64,000 nt of DNA, taken from positions 1,178,001-1,242,000 of the forward strand of contig CANMFX010000001.1 of NCBI GenBank assembly GCA_947497315.1, read 5' to 3'. The notes beneath the pieces are model-generated. The model was not told the DNA's origin, did no database searches, and saw nothing but the letters and a program-made list of their open reading frames with translations. Source of the DNA: an uncultured Sphingomonadaceae bacterium (GTDB taxonomy: Bacteria; Pseudomonadota; Alphaproteobacteria; Sphingomonadales; Sphingomonadaceae). The translations under genes were made by a program, and so were the position numbers. Below, piece after piece: positions 2,377 to 13,900 of this stretch. Position 1 is the stretch's first letter; each line of letters begins with the position of its first letter.

Positions 2377-4530
2377 CTAACTGCGCGCCCAGTTGAAATA
2401 GCGTTCCAGCCATTTTAGCGCCCATTCCGGCTTATGCTTCTTGCGCCATTCGCCAGCAGCAAATTTATTGGCTTCTGCCATGGTCGGATAGGTGTGGATC
2501 GTACCGAGAATCTTGCCGAGACCGAGGCCATGTTTCATCGCCAGCACATATTCGGTGAGCAGTTCACCGGCATTCTGGCCAACTATGGTCACGCCCAAAA
2601 TCCGGTCCTTACCCGGCGGTGTCAGCACTTTGACAAAGCCTTCGGTCGCGCTTTCGGCAATGGCGCGGTCGAGATCATCAAGACCATATTTGGTGACTTC
2701 ATATTCGATGCCCTCTTTTTCAGCCTCTTGCTCATTGAGGCCAACATGCGCGATTTCGGGATCGAGGAACGTCGTCCACGGCAGAAATTCATAGCTTGGC
2801 TTGAACTTCTTATACCGCCCGAACAGTGCATTGACCGTGGCAAACCACGCCTGGTGGGAGGCATTATGGGTTAGCTGATAGGGGCCGGCAACGTCGCCCG
2901 CGGCATAGATATGCGGGAAAGTCGCCTGAAGATGGTCATTGGTGACCAGCGTCCGGTCGGTTTCAACGCCAAGCTCTTCAAGACCGAATCCTTCAAGCCG
3001 CGCCGCGCGACCAACAGCGATCAGCAAATCGTCAAAGGGCAGGGCCTGTTCGCCGCTGTCATTCTCGACAATGATCATTTTGGTACCGTTCTGTATCTCT
3101 GTGCGTAGAGCCTTGTGATTGCAGAGCAACGTAACACCGGAGTCTTTCAGTGCCTTGGCTGCGATCTCGGAAACATCCTCGTCTTCGATGCCCATTATCC
3201 GATCGGCCATTTCAATAAGCGTGACATTGCTGCCAAGCCGCGCAAAGGATTGCGACAGTTCACAACCAATCGGGCCGCCGCCCAGCACCACCATTTTTTC
3301 CGGTACGGTATCGCGTTTGGCCATTTCCTCCCACAACGTATCGCTGGTCAGATAGCCGGTCTCATCGAGGCCGGGCAGGGGCGGAACGAACGGTCGTGCT
3401 CCAGTCGCGAGCACAATCGCCTTGCCGGTCAGCGTCTGGGTACCGCCGTCATTGCGTTCAATCTCGACGGTCCAGGGATCAGTCAACCGGGCATAGCCCT
3501 GCACCACATCCACGCCAAGGCCTTCAAACCGTTCGACGCTGTCATGCGGTTCAATGGTTTTGATGATGTCTTCGACCCGGGTGATCACATTTTTGAAATT
3601 GATGGTCGGCTTGATGGCGGTCAGGCCATAGCGATCGGCATGCTGCATCTGATCGGCAATTTTGGCGCTCTTGATGAGGGCTTTCGATGGGACACAGCCA
3701 TAGTTAAGGCAGTCACCGCCCATTTTGCCTGACTCGATAAGTGTGACTTTGGCATTGATCGTCGCAGCGATCAGTGAGGATACGAGTCCGCCGGAACCCG
3801 CACCAATAACGATCAGGTTACGGTCGAATTTCTTTGGCCTGTTCCAGCCTTTGTAGATTTTCCGGTTGTTGATAAAGCCGATAATGCCTTTGGCGATCCA
3901 GGGGAATATCGCCAGCAGGACAAAGGAGCCGATGACCGAGAGGGAGAAGACCCCGCCAACCGAGTCGACTTGCGACAGCTGCGTACCCGCGTTCACATAA
4001 ACGATCGTGCCGGCGAGCATGCCAATCTGGCTGGCGATAAAATATTTCCACACCCGCATTTTGGTTAGACCCATGAGCAGGTTGACGACAAAAAACGGAA
4101 AGGCCGGCACCAGCCTGATCGAGATCAGGTAAAAAACGCCGTCGCGCTTGATGCCTTCGTTGATATTTTTGAGCCGTTGGCCAAATTTACTCTCGACCCA
4201 GTCGCCGAGCAGATAGCGTGAGGTGAGGAAAGCAATGGTCGCACCGATGGTAGATGCAAAGGACACCACGATTGTGCCAACGACAACGCCAAACAATGCG
4301 CCGGCCGCTAGTGTCATCACCGCGGCACCAGGAATCGAGAGGGCAGTAACCGCAACATAGATCAGGAAAAATACGCCGATGATGATCAGCGGATTGGCTC
4401 TATATTGCGCATCAATCGCGTCCTGCTGTGCCTTCAGGTTTTCAAGCGTGAGCTGCGAACCGAGATCATAGTGAAAAAATGCAAAAATCGCCGCGACGAT
4501 AACGGCCAGGACCAGTAATTTCTTCCACAT
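2377..4530 (-). CDS. Fusion: TVP38/TMEM64-type membrane domain + mercuric-reductase-like flavoprotein
   Basis: The protein is 717 residues from the ATG at 4530, chosen because AGGGGA lies 7 bases before it; a longer frame opens at 4590 without a comparable site. Residues about 1-220 form a VTT (DedA/TVP38) domain with several helices and the S-I-R-L-V-P-A-F-P-F-F motif near 137-147. From residue 238 begins a pyridine nucleotide-disulfide oxidoreductase: FAD motif GAGSGG (243-248), redox pair C274-x4-C279 in G-G-D-C-L-N-Y-G-C-V-P-S-K, a second nucleotide motif G-G-G-P-I-G-C-E, and the C-terminal dimerisation domain. The C-terminal double Cys of true MerA is absent, so mercury reduction is not implied. 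It is probably a membrane-anchored NAD(P)H-dependent disulfide or quinone reductase. Confidence 0.88.
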   Translation of the reverse strand: MWKKLLVLAVIVAAIFAFFHYDLGSQLTLENLKAQQDAIDAQYRANPLIIIGVFFLIYVAVTALSIPGAAVMTLAAGALFGVVVGTIVVSFASTIGATIAFLTSRYLLGDWVESKFGQRLKNINEGIKRDGVFYLISIRLVPAFPFFVVNLLMGLTKMRVWKYFIASQIGMLAGTIVYVNAGTQLSQVDSVGGVFSLSVIGSFVLLAIFPWIAKGIIGFINNRKIYKGWNRPKKFDRNLIVIGAGSGGLVSSLIAATINAKVTLIESGKMGGDCLNYGCVPSKALIKSAKIADQMQHADRYGLTAIKPTINFKNVITRVEDIIKTIEPHDSVERFEGLGVDVVQGYARLTDPWTVEIERNDGGTQTLTGKAIVLATGARPFVPPLPGLDETGYLTSDTLWEEMAKRDTVPEKMVVLGGGPIGCELSQSFARLGSNVTLIEMADRIMGIEDEDVSEIAAKALKDSGVTLLCNHKALRTEIQNGTKMIIVENDSGEQALPFDDLLIAVGRAARLEGFGLEELGVETDRTLVTNDHLQATFPHIYAAGDVAGPYQLTHNASHQAWFATVNALFGRYKKFKPSYEFLPWTTFLDPEIAHVGLNEQEAEKEGIEYEVTKYGLDDLDRAIAESATEGFVKVLTPPGKDRILGVTIVGQNAGELLTEYVLAMKHGLGLGKILGTIHTYPTMAEANKFAAGEWRKKHKPEWALKWLERYFNWARS

Positions 4531-4821
4531 GCGATTTTCCCCTAACCTTTGAACAGGACGCTTTTCATAGTTCCCCTTGGTTCGTGCCAAGGCCTTAACG
4601 GGTTACAGGAACGCCGTCGATCTCGTATTTTGCTACAAAAGCGTTGGAATTTCAGCAAAAAACAGAAAATTCTCCGTCGATTGCCAAATCGCAACAAGCG
4701 AAAAAGCGAATCGGCATAACAAGGGGATGTCGCATGAAGCGGCATATAACAGGGCCTCTTTACCCCCTTCCTTGTTCGTTCAGGGAAAGATGAGAAGCCT
4801 TAGACCCTAAGGAGAATACCG
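4531..4821. other. Intergenic region upstream of the Fap-like operon
   Basis: This 291-base gap separates two divergently read units, so it should hold both promoters. I see no convincing sigma-54 (TGGCAC-N5-TTGC) site and no long palindrome. A purine-rich ribosome-binding site (AAGGAG, about 4809-4814) precedes the ATG at 4822. No gene is supported inside it. Confidence 0.5.
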
Positions 4822-5328
4822 ATGAAAATGACTAAAGTATTGGCGGCATCCGCTGCAGCAGCAGCTTTGGCCGTTGGCGGACCTGCCATGGCTCAGCTGA
4901 ATCAAAATAACGATGTCACCGACACAGACAATGGTGCAGTCGTTGTTAACGATCTGCTTGATGTTTATCTGGCAGCAGATGCCAGCACGACAAATACGCT
5001 GGACGACATCAACAGCAATAACAACAACAACAACGACCTTGTTATCGCTACGCAAACGCTGACGGCATACAACACCAACTCTCAGATGGATGAACTCATC
5101 GATCTTGATGGTGAAGATGGTACACCGGCTCCAGTCGGCTATAACAGCGGCGACAACTATGTTCGCGGCAGTGCCTTCGCAGCTTTTGCGGGTATCCTGA
5201 ACCAATCATGGAATACCGGCGTAAACAACAACAACCAGGCTGCAACCAACATTGCGGCACAGGGCTCCATCAACTTCGGTGATGGCGCTGGTGAAGCAGC
5301 TGGCGGCGGCGCTGGCGGCGGCGATTAA
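4822..5328 (+). CDS. Secreted Asn-rich protein, candidate Fap-like amyloid subunit
   Basis: A 168-residue protein with a clear Sec signal peptide (K-M-T-K, Ala-rich core, A-M-A-Q near residue 25). The mature part is rich in Asn, Asp, Ala and Gly with almost no positive charge. It includes a run S-N-N-N-N-N-N-D (about 65-72), a segment N-T-G-V-N-N-N-N-Q-A-A-T-N-I-A-A-Q-G (about 134-151), and a Gly-rich tail. Asn/Gln/Gly/Ala-rich, Cys-free composition with a GVN..N.Q..N..A pattern is typical of FapB/FapC-type bacterial amyloids, and the next genes encode a C39 peptidase and, across a terminator, a FapF-like pore. No true sequence repeats of FapC length are visible. The amyloid assignment is inference from composition and context. 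Confidence 0.55.
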   Translation: MKMTKVLAASAAAAALAVGGPAMAQLNQNNDVTDTDNGAVVVNDLLDVYLAADASTTNTLDDINSNNNNNNDLVIATQTLTAYNTNSQMDELIDLDGEDGTPAPVGYNSGDNYVRGSAFAAFAGILNQSWNTGVNNNNQAATNIAAQGSINFGDGAGEAAGGGAGGGD

Positions 5329-5419
5329 TCGCCCAAGCGATGAAGGACGGGCCGGTTTCAGCCGATGGAGCCGGCCTCTCCATCCTCCAAACATCCGCCC
5401 CCAATCGGGAGTAAAGACG

Positions 5420-5791
5420 ATGAAAAAGCATTTTTGGCTTCTTATGACAGCCCCTCTGGCCATGACCGCCTCCCACGTGAGCGCTCAGGTAGCAGATCAG
5501 AATGCTGCGCCTCAGGCACCCGCGACTACCGAGCAGCAATCTGCGTCCCCGCTAATGTCGTTGGAAGAGCTCGACGAGCTCCGTGGCGGCACACAAATAG
5601 CGATTAACGAACAGACCTTCAATTCGGACAATACCGGCAACACGATCAATGGCGATTTTACCGCCGGCGATGTCAATCTGTCGGACAATTCACTGTCCAG
5701 CTTTAACGGTCTTGGTAATATTGTGATCAACACCGGCGCACAGTCGGCACTCCAGGCAGGCCTGGCGGTGACGATCAACATTACCGATTGA
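5420..5791 (+). CDS. Secreted LRGG-motif protein (candidate C39 substrate)
   Basis: A 123-residue protein from ATG 5420, with GGGAG upstream; the frame also extends back to 5252 without a site. A signal peptide covers residues 1-22 (V-S-A-Q). After a Gln/Ala/Pro-rich linker comes M-S-L-E-E-L-D-E-L-R-G-G (residues 46-57), very like the double-glycine leader motif cut by C39 peptidases. The segment after GG is polar, Asn/Asp/Thr-rich (residues 58-95), and ends with N-G-L-G-N-I-V-I-N-T-G-A-Q-S-A-L-Q-A-G (96-114). Length after the GG is 66 residues. The next gene, 14 bases on, is the C39 peptidase. I do not recognise a named family; a nucleator or accessory fibre component is my inference. Confidence 0.6.
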   Translation: MKKHFWLLMTAPLAMTASHVSAQVADQNAAPQAPATTEQQSASPLMSLEELDELRGGTQIAINEQTFNSDNTGNTINGDFTAGDVNLSDNSLSSFNGLGNIVINTGAQSALQAGLAVTINITD

Positions 5792-5805
5792 GTAAGGTAT
5801 AGGCC

Positions 5806-6612
5806 ATGACCCCCTCTTCCCCCATCCCAAATGGCCTATCCCCCGCCTATCCGCCCTTTAAGAGCAGCTTGAAAAGCATCTTGAAGGGCGGACTGCTTGC
5901 TCTTGCCGGTACCTCCCTGTTTTGCAGTTCCATAGCCCAGGCCGAAGTCCGCTTGGGACGGGAATCTATCGGCGGAGACTATTATGTCGGCGTGATGACC
6001 TGGTGGGATATCCCGTTCCGTTCGGTCATTCGCCAGAAATATGATTTCAGCTGCGGTTCCGCAGCGGTCGCGACGTTGCTCACTTATCACTATGATCGCC
6101 CTACCAGTGAACGCACCCCGTTTAAGGCAATGTGGGACCTGGGCGATAAGGAAGCGATTAAAGAGGTCGGTTTTTCGATGCTCGACATGCGCCGGTATCT
6201 GCAATCCATCGGTTATCGCGCCGAAGGCTTCAAGCTGACAATGGATCAGCTCAGCCAGGTAAAACGCCCGGTTATAGTGTTGCTCGACCTTGATGGTTTC
6301 AAGCATTTCGTTGTGGTCAAAGGGCAGACAAAAGACCAAGTGCTGGTCGGCGACTCTGTTCTGGGTATCAGCAAATATTCGACCGAAGATTTTACGAAAT
6401 ACTGGAACGGCGTCGCGCTGGCGATTGTTGACGGACCGATAAAAAGCCTGCCCAAATATAATCTTGCCGGTGACTGGAACCGCTGGTCCACTGCACCAAC
6501 CGACCAGGTTTCGGCAACAGCCACGATCGGCAATCTAACCAACCACCTCCCCCCCCTGTACCAGATATCCCCAGAGCTATTGCTCGATGTGCGGGTCGGT
6601 ACGATCAGATGA
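5806..6612 (+). CDS. Secreted C39-family cysteine peptidase, FapD-like
   Basis: A 268-residue stand-alone C39 (double-glycine) peptidase. A signal peptide with a long N-region ends near residue 46 (A-Q-A), so the enzyme should act in the periplasm. Catalytic residues are visible: oxyanion Gln77 and Cys83 in R-Q-K-Y-D-F-S-C-G-S-A-A, His167 in G-F-K-H-F-V-V-V, and Asp183 in V-G-D-S-V-L-G. No ABC-transporter domains are attached, unlike bacteriocin exporters. The combination R-Q-x-Y-D-F-S-C-G-S-A and K-H-F-V-V-V-K-G is what I know from FapD of the Pseudomonas amyloid operon. It lies between two genes whose products carry LRGG motifs, its likely substrates. The gap to the previous gene is 14 bases and to the next 10, so these form one operon. 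Confidence 0.88.
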   Translation: MTPSSPIPNGLSPAYPPFKSSLKSILKGGLLALAGTSLFCSSIAQAEVRLGRESIGGDYYVGVMTWWDIPFRSVIRQKYDFSCGSAAVATLLTYHYDRPTSERTPFKAMWDLGDKEAIKEVGFSMLDMRRYLQSIGYRAEGFKLTMDQLSQVKRPVIVLLDLDGFKHFVVVKGQTKDQVLVGDSVLGISKYSTEDFTKYWNGVALAIVDGPIKSLPKYNLAGDWNRWSTAPTDQVSATATIGNLTNHLPPLYQISPELLLDVRVGTIR

Positions 6613-6622
6613 GAGACGAGTC

Positions 6623-7216
6623 ATGACCTATAGACAAAAATTTTTCGCCACGGTCGCCTGCATCGCGTCTTCTACCGCGATGCTATTGCCCCAAACCGCC
6701 AACGCTGAACCCGCAGCGGCGGTTGGTCTGCCCGCACTTGTTCCTGACGAAGATCTGGACAAGTTGCGTGGCGGGTTTGTGGTCAACGGGTTGGGCGTCA
6801 ATTTCGGAGCTGATATACGCACATACGTTAATGGTGAGTTGCTGTTGCAAACCGTGCTGACCATGAATGACGATGGTGCGCACACCAGCCAGACAGCTGC
6901 GGCCGGACTAAGCCCGGTTGATGTCTCGACACTGGAAAATGGCATATTGTCCAACGGCAGTATTCGTATGAAAGTCGGCGACACACCTGTCTATCTGCTC
7001 AATAATGGCCAGACCGCGATTGCGCATGAGACCGCCAATGGCGTCCAGAATATGCTGATCAATACCGCCAGCGGCTTTGATGCCGTTCAGGAAGTGGACG
7101 CCACCCTGTCTTTATCCGGATATGAAAGTTTCAATAGCGATTTGATGATGGACCGGATCGGCAACGCACTGAATGATGTTGTGGGGCAAGCCGGAATCGG
7201 GGCGCTTGGAAACTAA
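6623..7216 (+). CDS. Secreted RGG-motif protein (second candidate C39 substrate)
   Basis: A 197-residue protein from ATG 6623 (GAGACGAG just upstream; earlier in-frame starts overlap the peptidase gene). The signal peptide ends near residue 28 (A-N-A-E). The motif P-D-E-D-L-D-K-L-R-G-G follows at residues 41-51, matching the LDELRGG of the gene two upstream. After GG comes F-V-V-N-G-L-G-V-N-F-G-A-D-I-R-T-Y-V-N-G, then a long Thr/Asn/Ser-rich beta-prone region without Cys. I recognise this layout from hypothetical proteobacterial proteins but know no named family. It is the last gene of the operon, followed by a hairpin terminator. It could be a chaperone, cap or minor fibre subunit. Confidence 0.6.
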   Translation: MTYRQKFFATVACIASSTAMLLPQTANAEPAAAVGLPALVPDEDLDKLRGGFVVNGLGVNFGADIRTYVNGELLLQTVLTMNDDGAHTSQTAAAGLSPVDVSTLENGILSNGSIRMKVGDTPVYLLNNGQTAIAHETANGVQNMLINTASGFDAVQEVDATLSLSGYESFNSDLMMDRIGNALNDVVGQAGIGALGN

Positions 7217-7266
7217 GGCCAAACCGAGGAGGATTGACCGGTTGCCAATCCAACTGGTCCAGACTG

Positions 7267-7308
7267 AAAGCACCATGAACCATTGAGGGGGTTTGTGGTG
7301 CTTTTTTT
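7267..7308 (+). terminator. Rho-independent terminator of the secreted-protein operon
   Basis: AAAGCACCA (7267-7275) pairs perfectly with TGGTGCTTT (7296-7304) across a 20-base loop, and the stem runs into seven T residues (7302-7308). It lies 50 bases after the stop codon at 7216. The A-rich left flank may also let it work weakly in the opposite direction for the convergent gene. Confidence 0.85.
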
Positions 7309-7696
7309 GATGACCACCCTTTTGATCGACCAATATCTTCCGCATCAATAGTTATTCGGATTGATCGGAAAAAGCCGGTACTTGGTATCGATATGCCGCT
7401 GGAGGCCCTCCGCCATTTGAGCGAAATTGACAGCTGCAATCCTAAGCCTCTCCACCGTGTTTATCCAACGAAAGAGCCGGGTGGAGTTCCAACGAGACTT
7501 TCCTACATCGCCAAGTCCGGGTAATTTCCACTCGGTTCTTTCTCAACTTTATATAAGCGGCCTATAAAAGCCTATAAAAGGGTGTGTGATCTGTGTGAAC
7601 TTTGGCACAGATCACTCGGTCAGACAGGCCAAAGGAGCTTGCAAACATTGTAAACTTCGCCGGCAGCTCCGCTGGTACCCTCAAACCCTGGATGGT
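7309..7696. other. Intergenic region with a 10-bp inverted repeat
   Basis: No gene is supported between the terminator and the convergent gene. Bases 7586-7595 (GTGATCTGTG) and 7606-7615 (CACAGATCAC) form a perfect inverted repeat with a 10-base loop. It lies about 80 bases beyond the stop of the minus-strand gene, so it may be that gene's transcript end, though the trailing T-run is weak. A tandem CCTATAAAAG (7561-7580) stands next to it. Confidence 0.55.
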
Positions 7697-9238
7697 CTAA
7701 AAGCGAAAGGGTATCCGGGCGACGATACTGACATCCGGGGCATCTTCAGTCACACCGAACTGGAAACCCAGATTCAGTGACTGTTTTTGGCTAAGCCGAT
7801 AGGACATTCCAAAATTCAGTGCCCCCACCTGAATGTCGTTGCTCTCCTGCAGCGTGTCGCCGAGCTGGCTCTTGGTAGAGAAAATATAGTTGTGGCGATA
7901 GCCTAGCGAAAAGGAAAAACGCGGGTTGAGCGCAAAACCAAAACCAACGCTGGCGTTAATCGCGTCACCGGGATCGACCTTGCCGACAAATACATCGCCA
8001 ACGACCCGGTCGATATTGCGTTCGATATTCCATAAATAACCGGTGCCGCCATAGATTACGACGGGGTCAGAAGGCAGCAAAAAGCTAATGCTTGGCTGCA
8101 CACCCCAAAAGCCCGACCCGGTGGCAAGTCCGGTTGCAACACCAAATTCGTCAAACGGAATCTCGTAGGGACTGGTGCCTGTGTCGGTTTTGACACGCAG
8201 GCCAGCAACCCAAATAGGATTTTGTGGCTTGGGCCGGTTGAGCTGATAACGCAGAGAAATTTCCGCGTCGCCTATTCCGGTTTCCTCCAAACCGACTTCT
8301 CGGGTAATCTGTTCTTCGCGTTGCTGGACGACCTGAATTCTGTCCTTGCGATAGAGCAGGGGAACGCGGCCCTCAATTTCGAGCCGGTTGGTCAAACCAT
8401 AGCGCATGGCAAAGGTTCCTATAACGGTATCGCGGTCCGCGTCGCTGGCTTCAATCGCGCCGATCTGGATGCCAGGAATAAGCTCAATGCCTCGGAAAAC
8501 CAGCCGATTGGTTGATGAACGCGTATATTCGATTGAGGGATCCAGAACGAACTGGCCGCGCGGTGTGAGCACGCCTTGGCCTTCCGGCACAGCCTCAACT
8601 TTTTGCTCGATATTATTGGCGGCCGGTGGTGCCTCGCCAACGGGGCCTTCTGGCATGGTCAGTTCGTCATCCGGGGTCGTCCCGATCTGTACCGCAGCCG
8701 TTTCCACCTGGCTTCGCTGAATGCCAGCGCCGCGCATTTGCGACAGGGCAAAAGGCGTTTCCACCGGCGCTGCTGCACGTACCAGTTGATTGTGCAACTC
8801 GAGCTGCTTGATCTTGTCATTTTGTGACTGGATGAGTGCATTCTGGCTCGCGATCAGTTGCTTCTGTTCCGCCAATTCTGATTGAATGGCCTGCAAGGCA
8901 GCGGTGATATTTGTGGTGTCCTGTGCCATTTGTGACTTCTGGGGAGCAGGCTGCGATTTTTGAGGAACTGGTTGGGGCTTTGCCTCGACGGCCGCTAGTT
9001 TGACGGTTGGTTTCTTCGGCTCGGCGGCTTGTTGAACCGCGGGCGATTGAACCTCGCGTAGCCGCGCAATGATGCGGGCGGTTTCCGCTTCCGCTTCTGC
9101 AGCGGTCAACCTCGGCTCCTGGCTTATGTGATCTGGTCCGGGGGTCTCGGAGGTCGTTGCCATTGCCGATCCTCCGGCAAAAGTGGCAACGGGAAAGGCG
9201 ATAATAGCTTTAAAGGGGGTGAAGCGATTGCTGGTCAT
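7697..9238 (-). CDS. FapF-like outer-membrane protein: coiled coil plus beta-barrel
   Basis: The protein is 513 residues from ATG 9238, chosen for GGAG 7 bases upstream and a signal peptide (residues 1-27, S-A-M-A); a longer frame opens at 9301. Residues about 40-105 are Ala/Pro/Lys/Gln-rich, and 110-153 form a heptad-like coiled coil (L-Q-A-I-Q-S-E-L-A-E-Q and onward). After a linker a barrel domain starts near 223 with G-V-L-T-P-R-G-Q-F-V-L-D-P-S and ends in I-P-F-R-F, with the terminal Phe expected of outer-membrane barrels. This coiled-coil/linker/barrel plan, and the LTPRG start of the barrel, match FapF, the trimeric pore that exports Fap amyloid. Its placement opposite a FapD-like peptidase operon supports that role. 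Homologues are sometimes labelled just transporter. Confidence 0.75.
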   Translation of the reverse strand: MTSNRFTPFKAIIAFPVATFAGGSAMATTSETPGPDHISQEPRLTAAEAEAETARIIARLREVQSPAVQQAAEPKKPTVKLAAVEAKPQPVPQKSQPAPQKSQMAQDTTNITAALQAIQSELAEQKQLIASQNALIQSQNDKIKQLELHNQLVRAAAPVETPFALSQMRGAGIQRSQVETAAVQIGTTPDDELTMPEGPVGEAPPAANNIEQKVEAVPEGQGVLTPRGQFVLDPSIEYTRSSTNRLVFRGIELIPGIQIGAIEASDADRDTVIGTFAMRYGLTNRLEIEGRVPLLYRKDRIQVVQQREEQITREVGLEETGIGDAEISLRYQLNRPKPQNPIWVAGLRVKTDTGTSPYEIPFDEFGVATGLATGSGFWGVQPSISFLLPSDPVVIYGGTGYLWNIERNIDRVVGDVFVGKVDPGDAINASVGFGFALNPRFSFSLGYRHNYIFSTKSQLGDTLQESNDIQVGALNFGMSYRLSQKQSLNLGFQFGVTEDAPDVSIVARIPFRF

Positions 9239-9273
9239 GATGTTTCTCCGGACATGTTTGCGCACGTCAAATT

Positions 9274-9990
9274 TTAAGCGGCGGACAACTCGCCGAGGCA
9301 AAGGTCAGCTGCGGGATGGATATCGGCAGCCGGTTCTGTGGTCAGGCTGTCCTGATACTCGCCTGCTAGGCGGCACAGCCCCGCATTATCTGTGATGATG
9401 ACAGAATCCCGGCCGTTGATCTTGATCAGACCACGGCGCGCCAGGTCGGTAAAAGTCCGGCTGACGGTATGAACCGTGAGGCCTAGGAAGTCGGCTATGT
9501 CGCTTCTCGACATCGGAACAAATATGTTGGGATCATCGTTTGCCTGCTGTTTCAGGCACAGCAGGAAGGCCGCCAGCTTTTCGGTTGCAGTGCGGTGCCC
9601 CATTATGAACAGGTAACGCTGAGCTGTCGACATTGCGCGAAACAATATCGAAACAGCCTCGTCCAGTTGTGGCTTTGGCGTCGAATCCTGGGTGATGTCT
9701 CCGACCCGGTAACACCGGACGATAACATCGGTTACTGCCTCTGCCGCCGTGCCATAAGTGCCGTAATCGGCTCCGAACACGTCACCACTAAAGAAAAAGC
9801 CGGTTAAATGCCGGTGGCCATCCATATGGAATCGGCATGTACGAACGGTGCCCTGCACCACCTCATACCAGCGGGTAGCTTTCTGTCCTTCGTCAAAGAT
9901 TAGTTGCCCTGCGCGAAACCGCAAAGTGGTCGAGCGCAAGTTTGAATGAAGCCCCTTCATCATAGCGGGGGCGGATAGTAGCGATTGCAT
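9274..9990 (-). CDS. Crp/Fnr-family transcriptional regulator
   Basis: A 238-residue regulator: an N-terminal cyclic-nucleotide-binding-like beta roll (about 20-135, with R-F-R-A-G-Q-L-I-F-D-E-G), a dimerisation helix containing T-A-T-E-K-L-A-A-F-L, and a winged helix with S-R-S-D-I-A-D-F-L-G-L-T-V-H-T-V-S-R (about 170-188). The Cys cluster that holds the Fe-S centre in FNR is missing, so it resembles FixK-type members whose signal is not evident. It ends 35 bases before the FapF-like gene on the same strand, and the two are probably co-transcribed. It is the best candidate for local control of the cluster (inference). Confidence 0.88.
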   Translation of the reverse strand: MQSLLSAPAMMKGLHSNLRSTTLRFRAGQLIFDEGQKATRWYEVVQGTVRTCRFHMDGHRHLTGFFFSGDVFGADYGTYGTAAEAVTDVIVRCYRVGDITQDSTPKPQLDEAVSILFRAMSTAQRYLFIMGHRTATEKLAAFLLCLKQQANDDPNIFVPMSRSDIADFLGLTVHTVSRTFTDLARRGLIKINGRDSVIITDNAGLCRLAGEYQDSLTTEPAADIHPAADLCLGELSAA

Positions 9991-10044
9991 CCGTGCTGTC
10001 TCCTCTGGACCCTCAGCACGACCCTTTTCGTTTGTTCCGCACCC

Positions 10045-10060
10045 ATATTCTTTAGAATAT
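10045..10060. promoter_or_regulatory. Palindromic operator-like site upstream of the Crp/Fnr gene
   Basis: ATATTCT (10045-10051) and AGAATAT (10054-10060) are perfect inverted copies around TT. The site lies 55 bases upstream of the start of the regulator gene on the minus strand, where an autoregulatory operator would be expected. It does not match the FNR/FixK consensus TTGAT-N4-ATCAA, so the binding protein is unknown. Confidence 0.4.
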
Positions 10061-10186
10061 TGAGCACGGCCTCAGATGCGACCTTCTGTTGTTTTGTGGC
10101 GATTATGTACGGCAAAAGTACCGAAATGGTCTATCCAGCGATTCGCGTGTTTTGAATCCCAAGCGAATCTGCGTGCTGGTTTTTAC

Positions 10187-10216
10187 TAGGTAATTTTACC
10201 TATGGAATTTCCATAG
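10187..10216. promoter_or_regulatory. Two abutting palindromes in the Crp/Fnr-LuxR intergenic region
   Basis: TAGGTAA (10187-10193) pairs with TTACCTA (10196-10202). Overlapping it, CTATGGAA (10200-10207) pairs with TTCCATAG (10209-10216) around a single T. They sit in an unusually A+T-rich stretch of the 534-base region 9991-10524, which separates two divergent regulator genes and holds no gene I can support. Dimeric repressor or activator binding is plausible; the owner is unknown. Confidence 0.45.
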
Positions 10217-10524
10217 CATGTAAATTACTGTAAATTCAAATAGTTGGCATGGACGTTTTTGTCCTATCGCGATTCTATGGTATGAGAGTAAAAGATTAAC
10301 CATCGCAGGGCAGCAATGATCCAGCGATTTAAAATTTGCGACGATTTGTTGGGGAGGGAACCACCAACAGTCTAATTGGTCGGTCCGTTGAGACCGTACT
10401 ATGTTGCGAGCACCGCTCAGCTGCAGCGACCGATGTCGCTCGCGGTATGGCGGCCGAGACAAATGGGGGCATTTGTTGATCGGCGAGCTTCACGGCTCGT
10501 TCGACATTGTAGAAGGTAGTCCTC

Positions 10525-10824
10525 GTGATGTTACAGCAAAAGAGTTTGACCAACGGTCCGGTACTCACGCTGAGAGAGCATGAGATATTGGAGTTTATTG
10601 CGCAGGGGCTTTCGACCAAGGAAGTGGCGCAACATATCGATATTGCGCCGCGTACGGTGGATCGACATGTGGAGAATGTGCGGCTGAAGTTAAGAGCAAA
10701 AAATCGCACGCACATGGTGGCTTGTGCCGTGATGGAAGGTCTTTTGCAGGTCAAGGTGGACAGGGAAGAGCATTCCTCTCCCAGCGCGTTCCCGCAGATG
10801 GATATGTCAGAACATGATGATTAA
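10525..10824 (+). CDS. Small LuxR-type HTH transcriptional regulator
   Basis: A 99-residue protein that is essentially a stand-alone LuxR/GerE DNA-binding domain: L-T-L-R-E-H-E-I-L-E-F-I-A-Q-G-L-S-T-K-E-V-A, then the recognition helix A-P-R-T-V-D-R-H-V-E-N-V-R-L-K-L (about residues 15-60). There is no receiver or ligand-binding domain, so its input must come from expression level or a partner. GTG at 525 and ATG at 528 are adjacent starts, with AGAAGG 8 and 11 bases upstream. It lies divergent from the Crp/Fnr gene. The acidic C-terminal tail is not conserved in type. Confidence 0.85.
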   Translation: MMLQQKSLTNGPVLTLREHEILEFIAQGLSTKEVAQHIDIAPRTVDRHVENVRLKLRAKNRTHMVACAVMEGLLQVKVDREEHSSPSAFPQMDMSEHDD

Positions 10825-10925: not shown

Positions 10926-13900
10926 ATGCGTTTGGATTTTAAAGATATATTGCAACCCGAGCTGACGGACATTAATCGTCTGCCGCCGCGGGCGTCCTTT
11001 ACGCCCTTCACTACGGGTGAAGAGGCACTTCAGCAGAATTCGCCGTCTTCTTTATGCCGTTCACTGGACGGGGAATGGGAATTCCTGTTGGCGGATCGGC
11101 CCGGTGATGCGCCGGCAGGATGGGAAGATCCGTCCTATGATGCCGACGGCTGGCGCTCCATCGTGGTGCCGGGTAGCTGGACGTGCCAGGGTACCAGCGA
11201 TCTGCCGCAATATACCAATGTGCAGATGCCCTTTCCCTGTAAAGCCGCACCCGAGGTGCCGGACGAGAACCCAACGGGCCTCTATCGTACGTCCTTTGAT
11301 TCGCCTGTGGACTGGAAAAACCGGCAAACAATCCTGCATGTCGGGGGTTTTGAAAGTGTTGCCTTGCTCTGGTGCAATGGTAAATTTGTCGGAATGGGTA
11401 AGGATTCCCGGTTGCCGAGCGAGTTTGATCTGTCACCTCATCTGGTCGAAGGGTCCAATCTTGTCGCGATTATGGTGATCAAATGGTCCGATGCTACATG
11501 GATCGAAGATCAGGACCACTGGTATCATGGTGGGCTTCATCGCTCCGTATATCTCGAATCGCGCGGCGCTACCCATATTGCCGATTTGAGCGTGACCGCT
11601 GATTTTGATCCTGAAACGGGTTCCGGCAAACTGCACCATATAGTCAAAATCGATGGTGCGTCCGCAGGATGGAAAGTGCGCGGCCAGCTATTGGGACCAG
11701 ATGACAGTCTGATTGCCAAACTGGATGATAGTCCGGTGATCCAGTTTCCCGATGGCAGTGTGTTCGAGCAATATACCGCCGCCTATAGTTTTGTTGATAA
11801 CCGGGCGGAATTGAACGCGGAAATAGAGGATGTTCAGCCTTGGTCATCCGAAACGCCCGTGCTCTATAAGCTGATCACTGAGCTGGTGGATGACAAAGGT
11901 GACGTAACCGAAGCGAATGTTACATCCATTGGCTTCCGCAGGATCGAGGTCAAGGATCGCCAGCTCCTGATCAATGGCAAACCGATAGTCATCATTGGCG
12001 TTAACCGGCATGATCATCATCCGGAAACAGGCAAGACATCGACCGTTGCGGAGATGCGGGAAGAACTGCTGTTGATGCGTCGGCATAACATCAATGCCAT
12101 CCGCACGGCTCATTATCCCAATGATCATCGCTTGCTTGATCTGTGCGATGAGCTGGGATTCTATGTCATTGATGAAGCCAACGTGGAATGCCACGCCCGC
12201 TGGCAGGCGGTATCCAACGACCTGCGATACCAAAAAGCGATTGTCGAACGAGTGATGCGAATGGTCTACCGGGACCGCAACCACGCAAGCGTCATTGGTT
12301 GGTCTTTGGGCAATGAATCCGGTCTTGGTCCAGCACATGATGCGGCCGCTGCCATGGTCCGGCGGATCGATGACACTCGCTTTCTGCACTATGAAGGTGC
12401 GATATTTAATCGGTTCCAGACCCTTATGGGGGATCCAACGGAAAGCTCTCGCAATGCGCCTGATATGCGCGAACGGATGACGACCGATTTGATTTGTCCA
12501 ATGTATCCTTCCATCGACTTCATTGTTGGTTGGGCACGCTGGGCAGAGGAAACCAAACTGGATGACCGGCCGATGATCCTGTGCGAGTTTTCCCATGCTA
12601 TGGGTAACTCCAACGGCTCCATTGCGGATTATGTTGATGCTTTTTTTGCTGAACCAGCTCTTGGCGGAGGTTTTGTGTGGGAATGGCGTGATCATGGATT
12701 TGCGATGACCGATGATGAGGGCCGGTTCTTCTGGGCCTATGGTGGGCATTTTGGCGATGACCCTAATGATGTGAACTTCTGTTGCGATGGCTTGGTCGGC
12801 CCGGATTTGACGCCGCATCCCGGGCTGCGCGAATATCAATGGGCTGCACGACCGGTTTGCGGGGAATGGACCGGGCCGGGGGAAGTGCGTTTCACCAATC
12901 GCCGGGCCTTCACCGGAACAGATGACCTTGAATTGACATGGACACTCCAGAAAAACGGGGTGGCCGTGGAAAGTGGTACGCTTCAACCTGATATTGCCGC
13001 AGGGCAAAGCGCTATTGTCGCGATTGATCACAACGTACCAACTGATAACGACGAATGGCATTTATTGACGCAATGGGCTTTGCGGAGAGCGACGCCCTGG
13101 GCGAAAGCAGGTCATATGGTCGCATGGGACCAGTTTGACCTGACCGCGAAACAGCATTCGGCTGCGCCTACGGAACAGGACTTTCGCTTGGCAGGATCAC
13201 AACCAGTGACAGGCAATATTTCGACCGGGCCGTTCAAACTGGATTTTGATGAAGAAGGTCGGATCGCATCTGTGGATGTGAATGGCCAGCGGATGGTTGA
13301 TGGCGATATCACCGCCACACTCTGGCGTGCACCGATGGACAATGACGGCGGCAAGATCGGCTGGCGTGAGGAACGCCCCAGCAAACGGATGGAATGGGTG
13401 AACCATGGTCTGGACAAGCTCAAGATCAAAGCTGCGCCGGCGCAATTTGTCGAACAGGACGGCAGGACGTTACTCGATTTCGAACGATCTTTGATAGGCA
13501 CCAACGGTGAGCAGGCGACGCACAGGTCACGCTGGACACTGGACGCCAATGGTGCGCGGATTGATGAAGAAATTATCGTGCCGGAGGCGTGGACTGATCT
13601 GCCCAGAATTGGCATCCGGTTTACGGTTCCGGCGGGGCTGGAAGAACTGACATGGCTGGGTCTGGGTCCGGACGAGTCCTATCCTGATCGCATAGGTGCC
13701 CAAACTGTTGGTCTCTGGACTTCGACCGTGACAGACCAATATCATCCTTACGTCCTGCCACAGGAACATGGCGCGCATGAACAGACCCGGTCGTTCACCC
13801 TGAAAGATGAAGCAGGACGGGGTTTTGAAATTGGGCTGCCTAATCTCAGTTTTTCGGCCCGGCACCACCATGATGCGGATATCAGCAAGGCGACGACGAT

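Follow-up and report, generated by a model that had tools for sequence, protein, structure and literature searches.

The window analysed here, a stretch of 64,000 nucleotides of DNA from an uncultured Sphingomonadaceae bacterium, encodes a Fap-like secretion locus, recognised by homologies to Fap components, a conserved neighbourhood, and a leader motif concentrated in its own genes. The interval 4822–9990 holds genes A and B, a C39 peptidase, gene D, a convergent coiled-coil/barrel protein, and a CRP-like regulator. Judged from sequence, the locus is a Fap-like variant of a sister lineage and not canonical Fap; it probably secretes an extracellular, and probably amyloid-type, fibre, with the C39 peptidase cutting the leaders of B and D in the periplasm. 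Because the arrangement recurs in related genomes, it is not a product of chance. An original prediction for this DNA had proposed a Fap-type system from three genes, for an Asn-rich, Cys-free secreted protein, the peptidase, and the barrel protein. All three are present, and the pore gene is indeed convergent to the subunit operon, but that account was incomplete: the interval also contains the secreted proteins B and D, both bearing the motif, and the CRP-like gene lies just outside the span of the three.

Homology to FapD and FapF

FapD-like matches at E 1e-19 or better were found in 30 of 196 genomes of the order (31 matches), the weaker matches of that search lying mostly in frames of 500 to 790 residues, and at E 1e-20 or better in 38 of 398 genomes of the phylum. 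Seventy loci from these genomes plus the window form a first set of 71 (several loci share one genome). A scan of genome contigs gave 588 relatives, the best 80 of which are the named loci. The nearest of these 80 belongs to an uncultured Sphingomonadaceae bacterium (84% identity), and they include Sphingopyxis, Novosphingobium, Caulobacteraceae, Marinobacter, Ectothiorhodospira, Massilia, Cupriavidus, Geotalea, and Nitrospira, their titles covering alpha-, beta-, gamma-, and deltaproteobacterial names as well as Nitrospira. The closest named relatives are Sphingomonadales, so that the alphaproteobacterial setting supposed earlier is likely.

The peptidase (P0003; 5806–6612, + strand; 268 aa) matches Pfam PF03412 (E 9.4e-21), NCBIfam C39_FapD (1.6e-46; 158 bits, below the equivalog cut-off of 330), and NCBIfam FilB (5.2e-31). 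Cys83, His167, and Asp183, the residues named in the original prediction, are in place and, like Gln77, do not vary across the 51 and the 64 aligned peptidase sequences (alignments A1, from 50 of the 70 first-set loci, and A2, from 63 of the 80 named loci). The best structural matches of its AlphaFold model (mean predicted local distance difference test score (pLDDT) 82, core blocks >90) are the peptidase domains of PCAT1 and ComA (7n87, 1.6e-9; 3k8u, 1.8e-8). The peptidase fold and a leader consensus in the same register are shared with these exporters, whereas theirs is a cytosolic peptidase fused to an ATP-binding cassette (ABC) transporter, and the window peptidase has a Sec-like N-terminus and no transporter domain. 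By a simple hydropathy rule plus inspection by eye, a Sec-like hydrophobic N-terminus was also found on A, B, D, and the barrel protein. FapD itself is periplasmic, and its catalytic Cys is required for FapC secretion, which a Cys-to-Ala exchange abolishes (PMC5557850).

A peptidase tree of all 71 first-set loci and 19 of the 80 named loci, made by a quick search with support from the Shimodaira–Hasegawa-like approximate likelihood-ratio test (SH-aLRT) and without bootstrap, contains a GG clade of 53 rows that includes the window (SH-aLRT 96) and a Fap clade of 26 rows (SH-aLRT 99). On this tree, the window peptidase belongs to a clade sister to FapD. Residues that split the clades include Tyr79 vs. 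Thr and Ser85 vs. Ala, none of which could be linked to the predicted site.

The barrel protein (P0005; 7697–9238, − strand) joins a coiled coil to an outer-membrane beta-barrel that opens, as had been observed before, with GVLTPRG. Among FapF crystal chains its best match is 5o67 (E 1e-29, residues 226–514), and it matches the NCBIfam models for FapF (2.3e-41; 142 bits, below the equivalog cut-off of 700) and FilC (1.5e-18). Using a barrel profile seeded with window-type barrels and then iterated, a FapF-like barrel match was found in the stretch around all 71 of the 71 loci with a FapD-like C39, window included (in L120 as a 162-residue piece only), and in 70 of the 80 named loci, some of whose contigs are short.

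Model and structure-chain comparison therefore agree with the earlier identification of the peptidase as a FapD homologue and the barrel as a FapF homologue, and these homologies make the link to Fap right; what does not stand is membership of canonical Fap, which was rejected on the tree and on the missing FapB and FapC. Models for FapA, FapB, FapC, and FapE had no match in the whole genome; no control genome matched for these four, and in the control locus L061 (a Sphingomonadales Fap locus) the FapB, FapC, and FapE models match clearly and FapA weakly. The reported lack of a FapA is in line with this genome scan; fapA is frequently deleted in Fap operons (PMC3792158). A FapD-type C39 peptidase and a FapF-type pore are present by homology, and neither FapB and FapC with their three repeats nor FapA was found. 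Like Pseudomonas Fap (FapD NF058616, FapE NF058559, FapF NF058560), the locus has a homologous periplasmic C39 peptidase and coiled-coil/barrel pore, a secreted leader-bearing protein directly after the peptidase gene, and an Asn-rich secreted putative subunit. Unlike Pseudomonas Fap, it has no detected FapA, its A and B are not detectable as FapB/FapC, its leaders end in GG where those of Fap end in GK or GR, its pore gene runs convergently with a CRP-like gene ahead of it, and its peptidase falls in the sister clade. Curli was also considered and rejected: PF07012 (curlin repeats) had no genome match, and the E. coli control was matched.

Double-glycine leaders of genes B and D and their counterpart in FapE

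Behind the signal peptide, gene B (5420–5791, + strand; 123 aa; secreted, putative minor subunit) and gene D (6623–7216, + strand; 197 aa; secreted, in the FapE position) each carry a double-glycine leader, MSLEELDELRGG|TQ in B (predicted recognition leader, −12 to −1, at 5555–5590, + strand) and VPDEDLDKLRGG|FV in D (−12 to −1, at 6740–6775, + strand). Both match the consensus LSxxELxxIxGG (quoted in PMC3897388) in register, and both fit, in the same register, the PCAT1 leader form L(−12)xxxE(−8)L(−7)xxxxG(−2)G(−1), residues −10 to −4 of which are helical on the peptidase (PMC6959990). In a structure model of D (mean pLDDT 83, ~70 in the leader region), residues 42–50 (−10 to −2) form a helix, and the predicted cut coincides with the start of the beta domain; a fold search with D gave no convincing PDB match (best E 0.025, probability 0.23).

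The distribution of the motif was assessed with a matrix of 13 columns, built from 17 gene-D leaders that belong to window-type Sphingomonadales loci, and run over every open reading frame (ORF) of at least 55 residues in each locus. The training leaders were picked by an RGG pattern, a choice that fixes Gly as the final residue in the training set and biases the matrix towards it in other sequences. Among the 531 open stretches of the window, only D (34.6, rank 1, its leader being itself in the training set) and B (24.9, rank 2) score >8. The named loci contain 4628 ORFs, and the 70 that score at least 15 are 60 D genes and 10 B genes, with none at any other place; the gene after C39 is the top-scoring ORF in 68 of the 80 (five of the named loci, L130–L134, are near kin of the training set). 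By group, it is the top ORF in 8/8 Sphingomonadales Fap loci, 15/17 other Fap loci, 10/14 other loci, 1/2 odd loci, and 0/10 Fil-like loci; the 20/20 in window-type loci is largely circular, this being the training group. Genes in the B place reach a shuffle p ≤ 0.05 in 13/20 window-type, 12/14 other, 0/5 Fap, and 5/8 Fil-like loci, and their leaders end in GG, GR, GM, and others.

Of the 196 genomes of the order, 25 are matched by the gene-D profile (51 proteins). All 25 are among the 30 with the peptidase (FapD-like match at E 1e-19 or better), with the gene-D match beside the peptidase by coordinates, against 0 of the 166 others; the peptidase genomes without a gene-D match are G019, G100, G128, G021, and G165. 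Absence of gene D elsewhere is not proven by these counts, because in many genomes only 17 first-look candidates were scored. In alignment A3, built from gene-D proteins with a leader score of at least 7 (71 of 80; 50 of the 71 used, mostly without long ones), the columns conserved at 90% or more are Met1, Leu45, Arg49, Gly50, Gly51, Gly129, and Asn147, the leader conservation being partly selected since members were chosen by leader score.

By profile comparison, gene D is probably a distant FapE homologue, and the earlier statement that no clear FapE is present was not supported. In canonical Fap, the FapE model matches the gene that follows FapD in all 10 loci scanned (L090–L097, L099, and L104; seven above the cut-off), and FapE model matches in L061 and L063 lie below the cut-off. 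Compared with 16 FapE sequences from the 17 other Fap loci, D gives 94.7% probability with a pairwise E of 6e-8 that is not database-calibrated. Among the eight canonical Fap genomes of the order, the gene-D profile picks out the FapE gene in five (2.3e-6 to 3.6e-4), and the NCBIfam FapE model misses gene D.

Canonical FapE carries the same stretch in the same register (LKDQELATLRGR|Y in L090, SDSELADMRGK|F in L056). The last site residue is Lys or Arg in 25/25 Fap loci counted, and Gly in 20/20 window-type loci (built in for the 17 used in training) and in 72/77 named loci. Since window-type loci keep the full double-glycine form, the disguised site of FapE (LRGR, LRGK) becomes readable. The peptidase tree shows one change of the last site residue when residues are assigned by group, as was done here, and not row by row. 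FapE yielded no mass-spectrometry peptides in about its first 70 residues (PMC5557850); the predicted site ends near residue 40 in L091–L093 and agrees only in part with this gap. As a prediction from locus comparison, the peptidase recognition site, carried over to canonical FapE, is well supported.

Other leader-like stretches were seen near peptidases of this kind. In L107, a 164-residue protein (9757–10251) ~2.7 kb upstream of the Fap-clade peptidase carries LDDQVLSRQRGG and is a candidate substrate. L098 (G280 C78) is a Fap locus with two FapD copies, in which small proteins at 8001–8444 and 12269–12703 have an RGR or RGG leader-like stretch followed by FVILWDE and are possible extra substrates. 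L109 (G329) has two tandem copies of the peptidase and gene D; the two peptidases score equally, and both D copies bear an identical leader.

Proposed mechanism and alternative readings

We propose that Sec delivers all five proteins (A, B, D, the peptidase, and the barrel protein) to the periplasm. There the C39 peptidase would bind the bacteriocin-type leader of 12 residues that B and D retain once their signal peptide is gone, and would cut behind Gly-Gly (LRGG|TQ in B, LRGG|FV in D); maturation would thus be a periplasmic event, away from any ABC transporter. Mature D would play the FapE role (activator, cap, or anchor), and A, perhaps with B, would be exported through the FapF-like barrel and assembled outside. 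A related LxxxRGx site in the linker of the barrel protein may be a further point of cutting, and canonical FapE would be cut at the same site, with Lys or Arg as its last residue. Cleavage at exactly this bond, export, and a fibre would be expected under this scheme, as would a role in biofilm.

The putative major subunit, gene A (4822–5328, + strand), is the Asn-rich protein of the original prediction (168 aa, 25 Asn, no Cys, Sec-like N-terminus). It has no Pfam or NCBIfam match at E 1, no double-glycine leader was found in it, and phmmer detects relatives in seven further Sphingomonadales loci. In their C-terminal part, the 20 upstream neighbours of B resemble gene B (profile probability 94%), which points to a repeat common to window-type A and B. 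The amyloid reading draws on the composition, the presence of pore and peptidase, and a repeat pattern that by eye resembles Fap repeats. The Asn-rich protein could not be sustained as a demonstrable FapC homologue (profile probability ~1%); comparisons of window-type A or B with the FapB and FapC proteins from the 17 other Fap loci give 1–7%, and only B against Sphingomonadales FapB reaches 73%. Gene B has two weak NCBIfam matches only (0.017 and 0.027).

Extended beyond this locus, the comparison inclines us, by a small balance of probability, towards a broader view: FapD-type peptidases of the canonical and sister lineages would form a Sec-dependent branch of bacteriocin-type C39 processing, recognising (L/V/I/M)xxxxLxx(L/M/Q)RG(G/K/R) on FapE-type proteins, on small FapB-like subunits (GG lineage), and on the pore linker (several clades). 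One protease would then both mature the activator and open or shut the pore, and in this way license secretion, and the last residue would have split into a Gly versus a Lys/Arg code along with the peptidase. In the literature, Fap proteins are described as without canonical C39 sequences and the target of FapD as unclear (PMC5557850) or its substrate as undetermined (PMC6173800), in papers of 2017 and 2018, and a 2025 review goes no further than to name the N-terminus of FapE and the periplasmic region of FapF as presumed targets of FapD (PMC12822426). A printed FapD leader or cut site was not found in an open-access library (subscription papers and preprints fell mostly outside the search), nor in the available portions of PMC6173795, PMC10638192, PMC12392863, and PMC3684753. 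Locus comparison now suggests the cut position, and the predicted site names the individual residues that could be mutated in a model amyloid system.

Several findings weigh against the proposed scheme. Gene D is not the top ORF in 12 of the 80 named loci (L137, L147, L162, L167, L171, L174, L178, L186, L189, L193, L201, and L202), and the motif of B reaches a shuffle p ≤ 0.05 in only 47 of 74 named loci. The FapE site, ending in Lys or Arg, is a misfit to the narrow double-glycine cleft described for PCAT1 (PMC6959990), so that the bond or the pocket must differ in the FapE case. Gene A shows one repeat by eye, against the three called almost universal in Fap (PMC12822426), and neither NCBIfam models nor profile comparison detected FapB or FapC homology in it. 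The linker between coiled coil and barrel, where it has been suggested that FapD may cut FapF (PMC5557850), contains the leader-like LSQMRGA (8726–8746, − strand), a possible further peptidase site with Arg-Gly-x-Gly at one aligned position in 13/13 proteins (window plus 12 relatives), mostly with Leu or Ile at −7; its motif score in the window protein is not significant (p = 0.145), and the linker motif is significant in 0/17 Fap barrels outside Sphingomonadales. Barrel-motif matches with p ≤ 0.05 occur in 8/20 window-type, 4/8 Sphingomonadales Fap, 5/14 other, 2/10 Fil-like, and 16/70 named barrels, some of them in the coiled coil and without RG. As a universal peptidase site, the linker is weakened by this patchy significance across groups and by the lack of a significant score in the 17 other Fap barrels.

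That the locus is canonical Fap merely diverged in sequence, to be filed as fapBCDEF, would account for the peptidase, barrel, and FapE-position gene all being Fap homologues and for the conserved peptidase–FapE order; the separate peptidase clade, the lack of genome matches to models that do find FapB, FapC, and FapE genes in L061, and genome G091, which has both peptidase types, make this unlikely. A similarly low likelihood attaches to an exporter of small bioactive peptides, with no fibre, resembling the Nap island of Neisseria, which comprises the C39 peptidase NapP, the FapF-like NapF, and the cationic double-glycine peptides NapA-C with a role in autolysis (PMC11798529). By published description, the logic of C39 peptidase, FapF-related channel, and double-glycine peptides is the same, and B is small, with a weak match of its leader region to a bacteriocin-like peptide family (NCBIfam, E 0.017, below the cut-off). 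Unlike the cationic NapA-C, mature window B (after LRGG) is acidic and without Lys or Arg, on which ground this reading is set lower, and A and B share the C-terminal repeat described above.

It is also conceivable, if rather improbable, that LxxxRGG is an uncut binding or export signal and the peptidase mainly a chaperone. Some C39-like domains are catalytically inactive and act as substrate chaperones (PMC5557850), and the last site residue varies (G, K, R); against this stand the invariant Gln77, Cys83, His167, and Asp183 and the loss of FapC secretion on Cys-to-Ala exchange in FapD. Secretion of a fibre with periplasmic cleavage of the B and D leaders remains the preferred reading.

Distribution, Fil-like loci, and neighbouring genes

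A 2013 survey described Fap as restricted to Beta-, Gamma-, and Deltaproteobacteria, with FapD and FapF part of larger families (PMC3792158); fapD/fapF homologues are co-located in five further phyla (PMC6173800), and Fap is reported in many Pseudomonadota families, surveys having required Fap repeats (PMC12822426). A widespread GG-type family, represented here by the best 80 of 588 relatives, could escape surveys of that kind. Eight genomes of the window's own family (L056–L063) carry a canonical-clade FapD, and three of these loci (L056, L061, and L063), read gene by gene, have a fapABCDEF-like operon with an extra secreted gene of 196–210 aa between fapE and fapF.

The Fil system is known from Acinetobacter. 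Fil (FilB NF050078, FilC NF050079) resembles the window locus in its C39 peptidase and FapF-related barrel; the two differ in that the window's FilB and FilC scores are lower than its FapD and FapF scores, and in that gene D is never the top ORF in the 10 loci labelled Fil-like. Of the five Fil-like loci scanned, four match FilB best, and L054 matches FapD best. Four Fil-like upstream proteins have a leader-like stretch ending in GQ. In L124–L128, the protein upstream of C39 has LxxVTGQ or LxxITGQ soon after the signal peptide.

A CRP/FNR-type regulator (9274–9990, − strand) lies directly upstream of the barrel gene. In the window and in seven first-set loci of its clade, the CRP-like gene is the co-oriented neighbour of the barrel gene; a CRP-like match occurs also in L130–L135. 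An Rfam search gave no match, and promoter and terminator scans gave a signal no higher than shuffled sequence. A short LuxR-type protein (10525–10824) recurs near the locus in the window's clade, as does the CRP-like gene, and a LuxR-type protein match (4.7e-21) lies ~3 kb from the peptidase of the canonical Fap locus L061. Elsewhere in the window, positions 2377–4590 hold a 737-residue frame, which we take to be a membrane part of the DedA/TVP38 kind joined to a flavin disulfide oxidoreductase.

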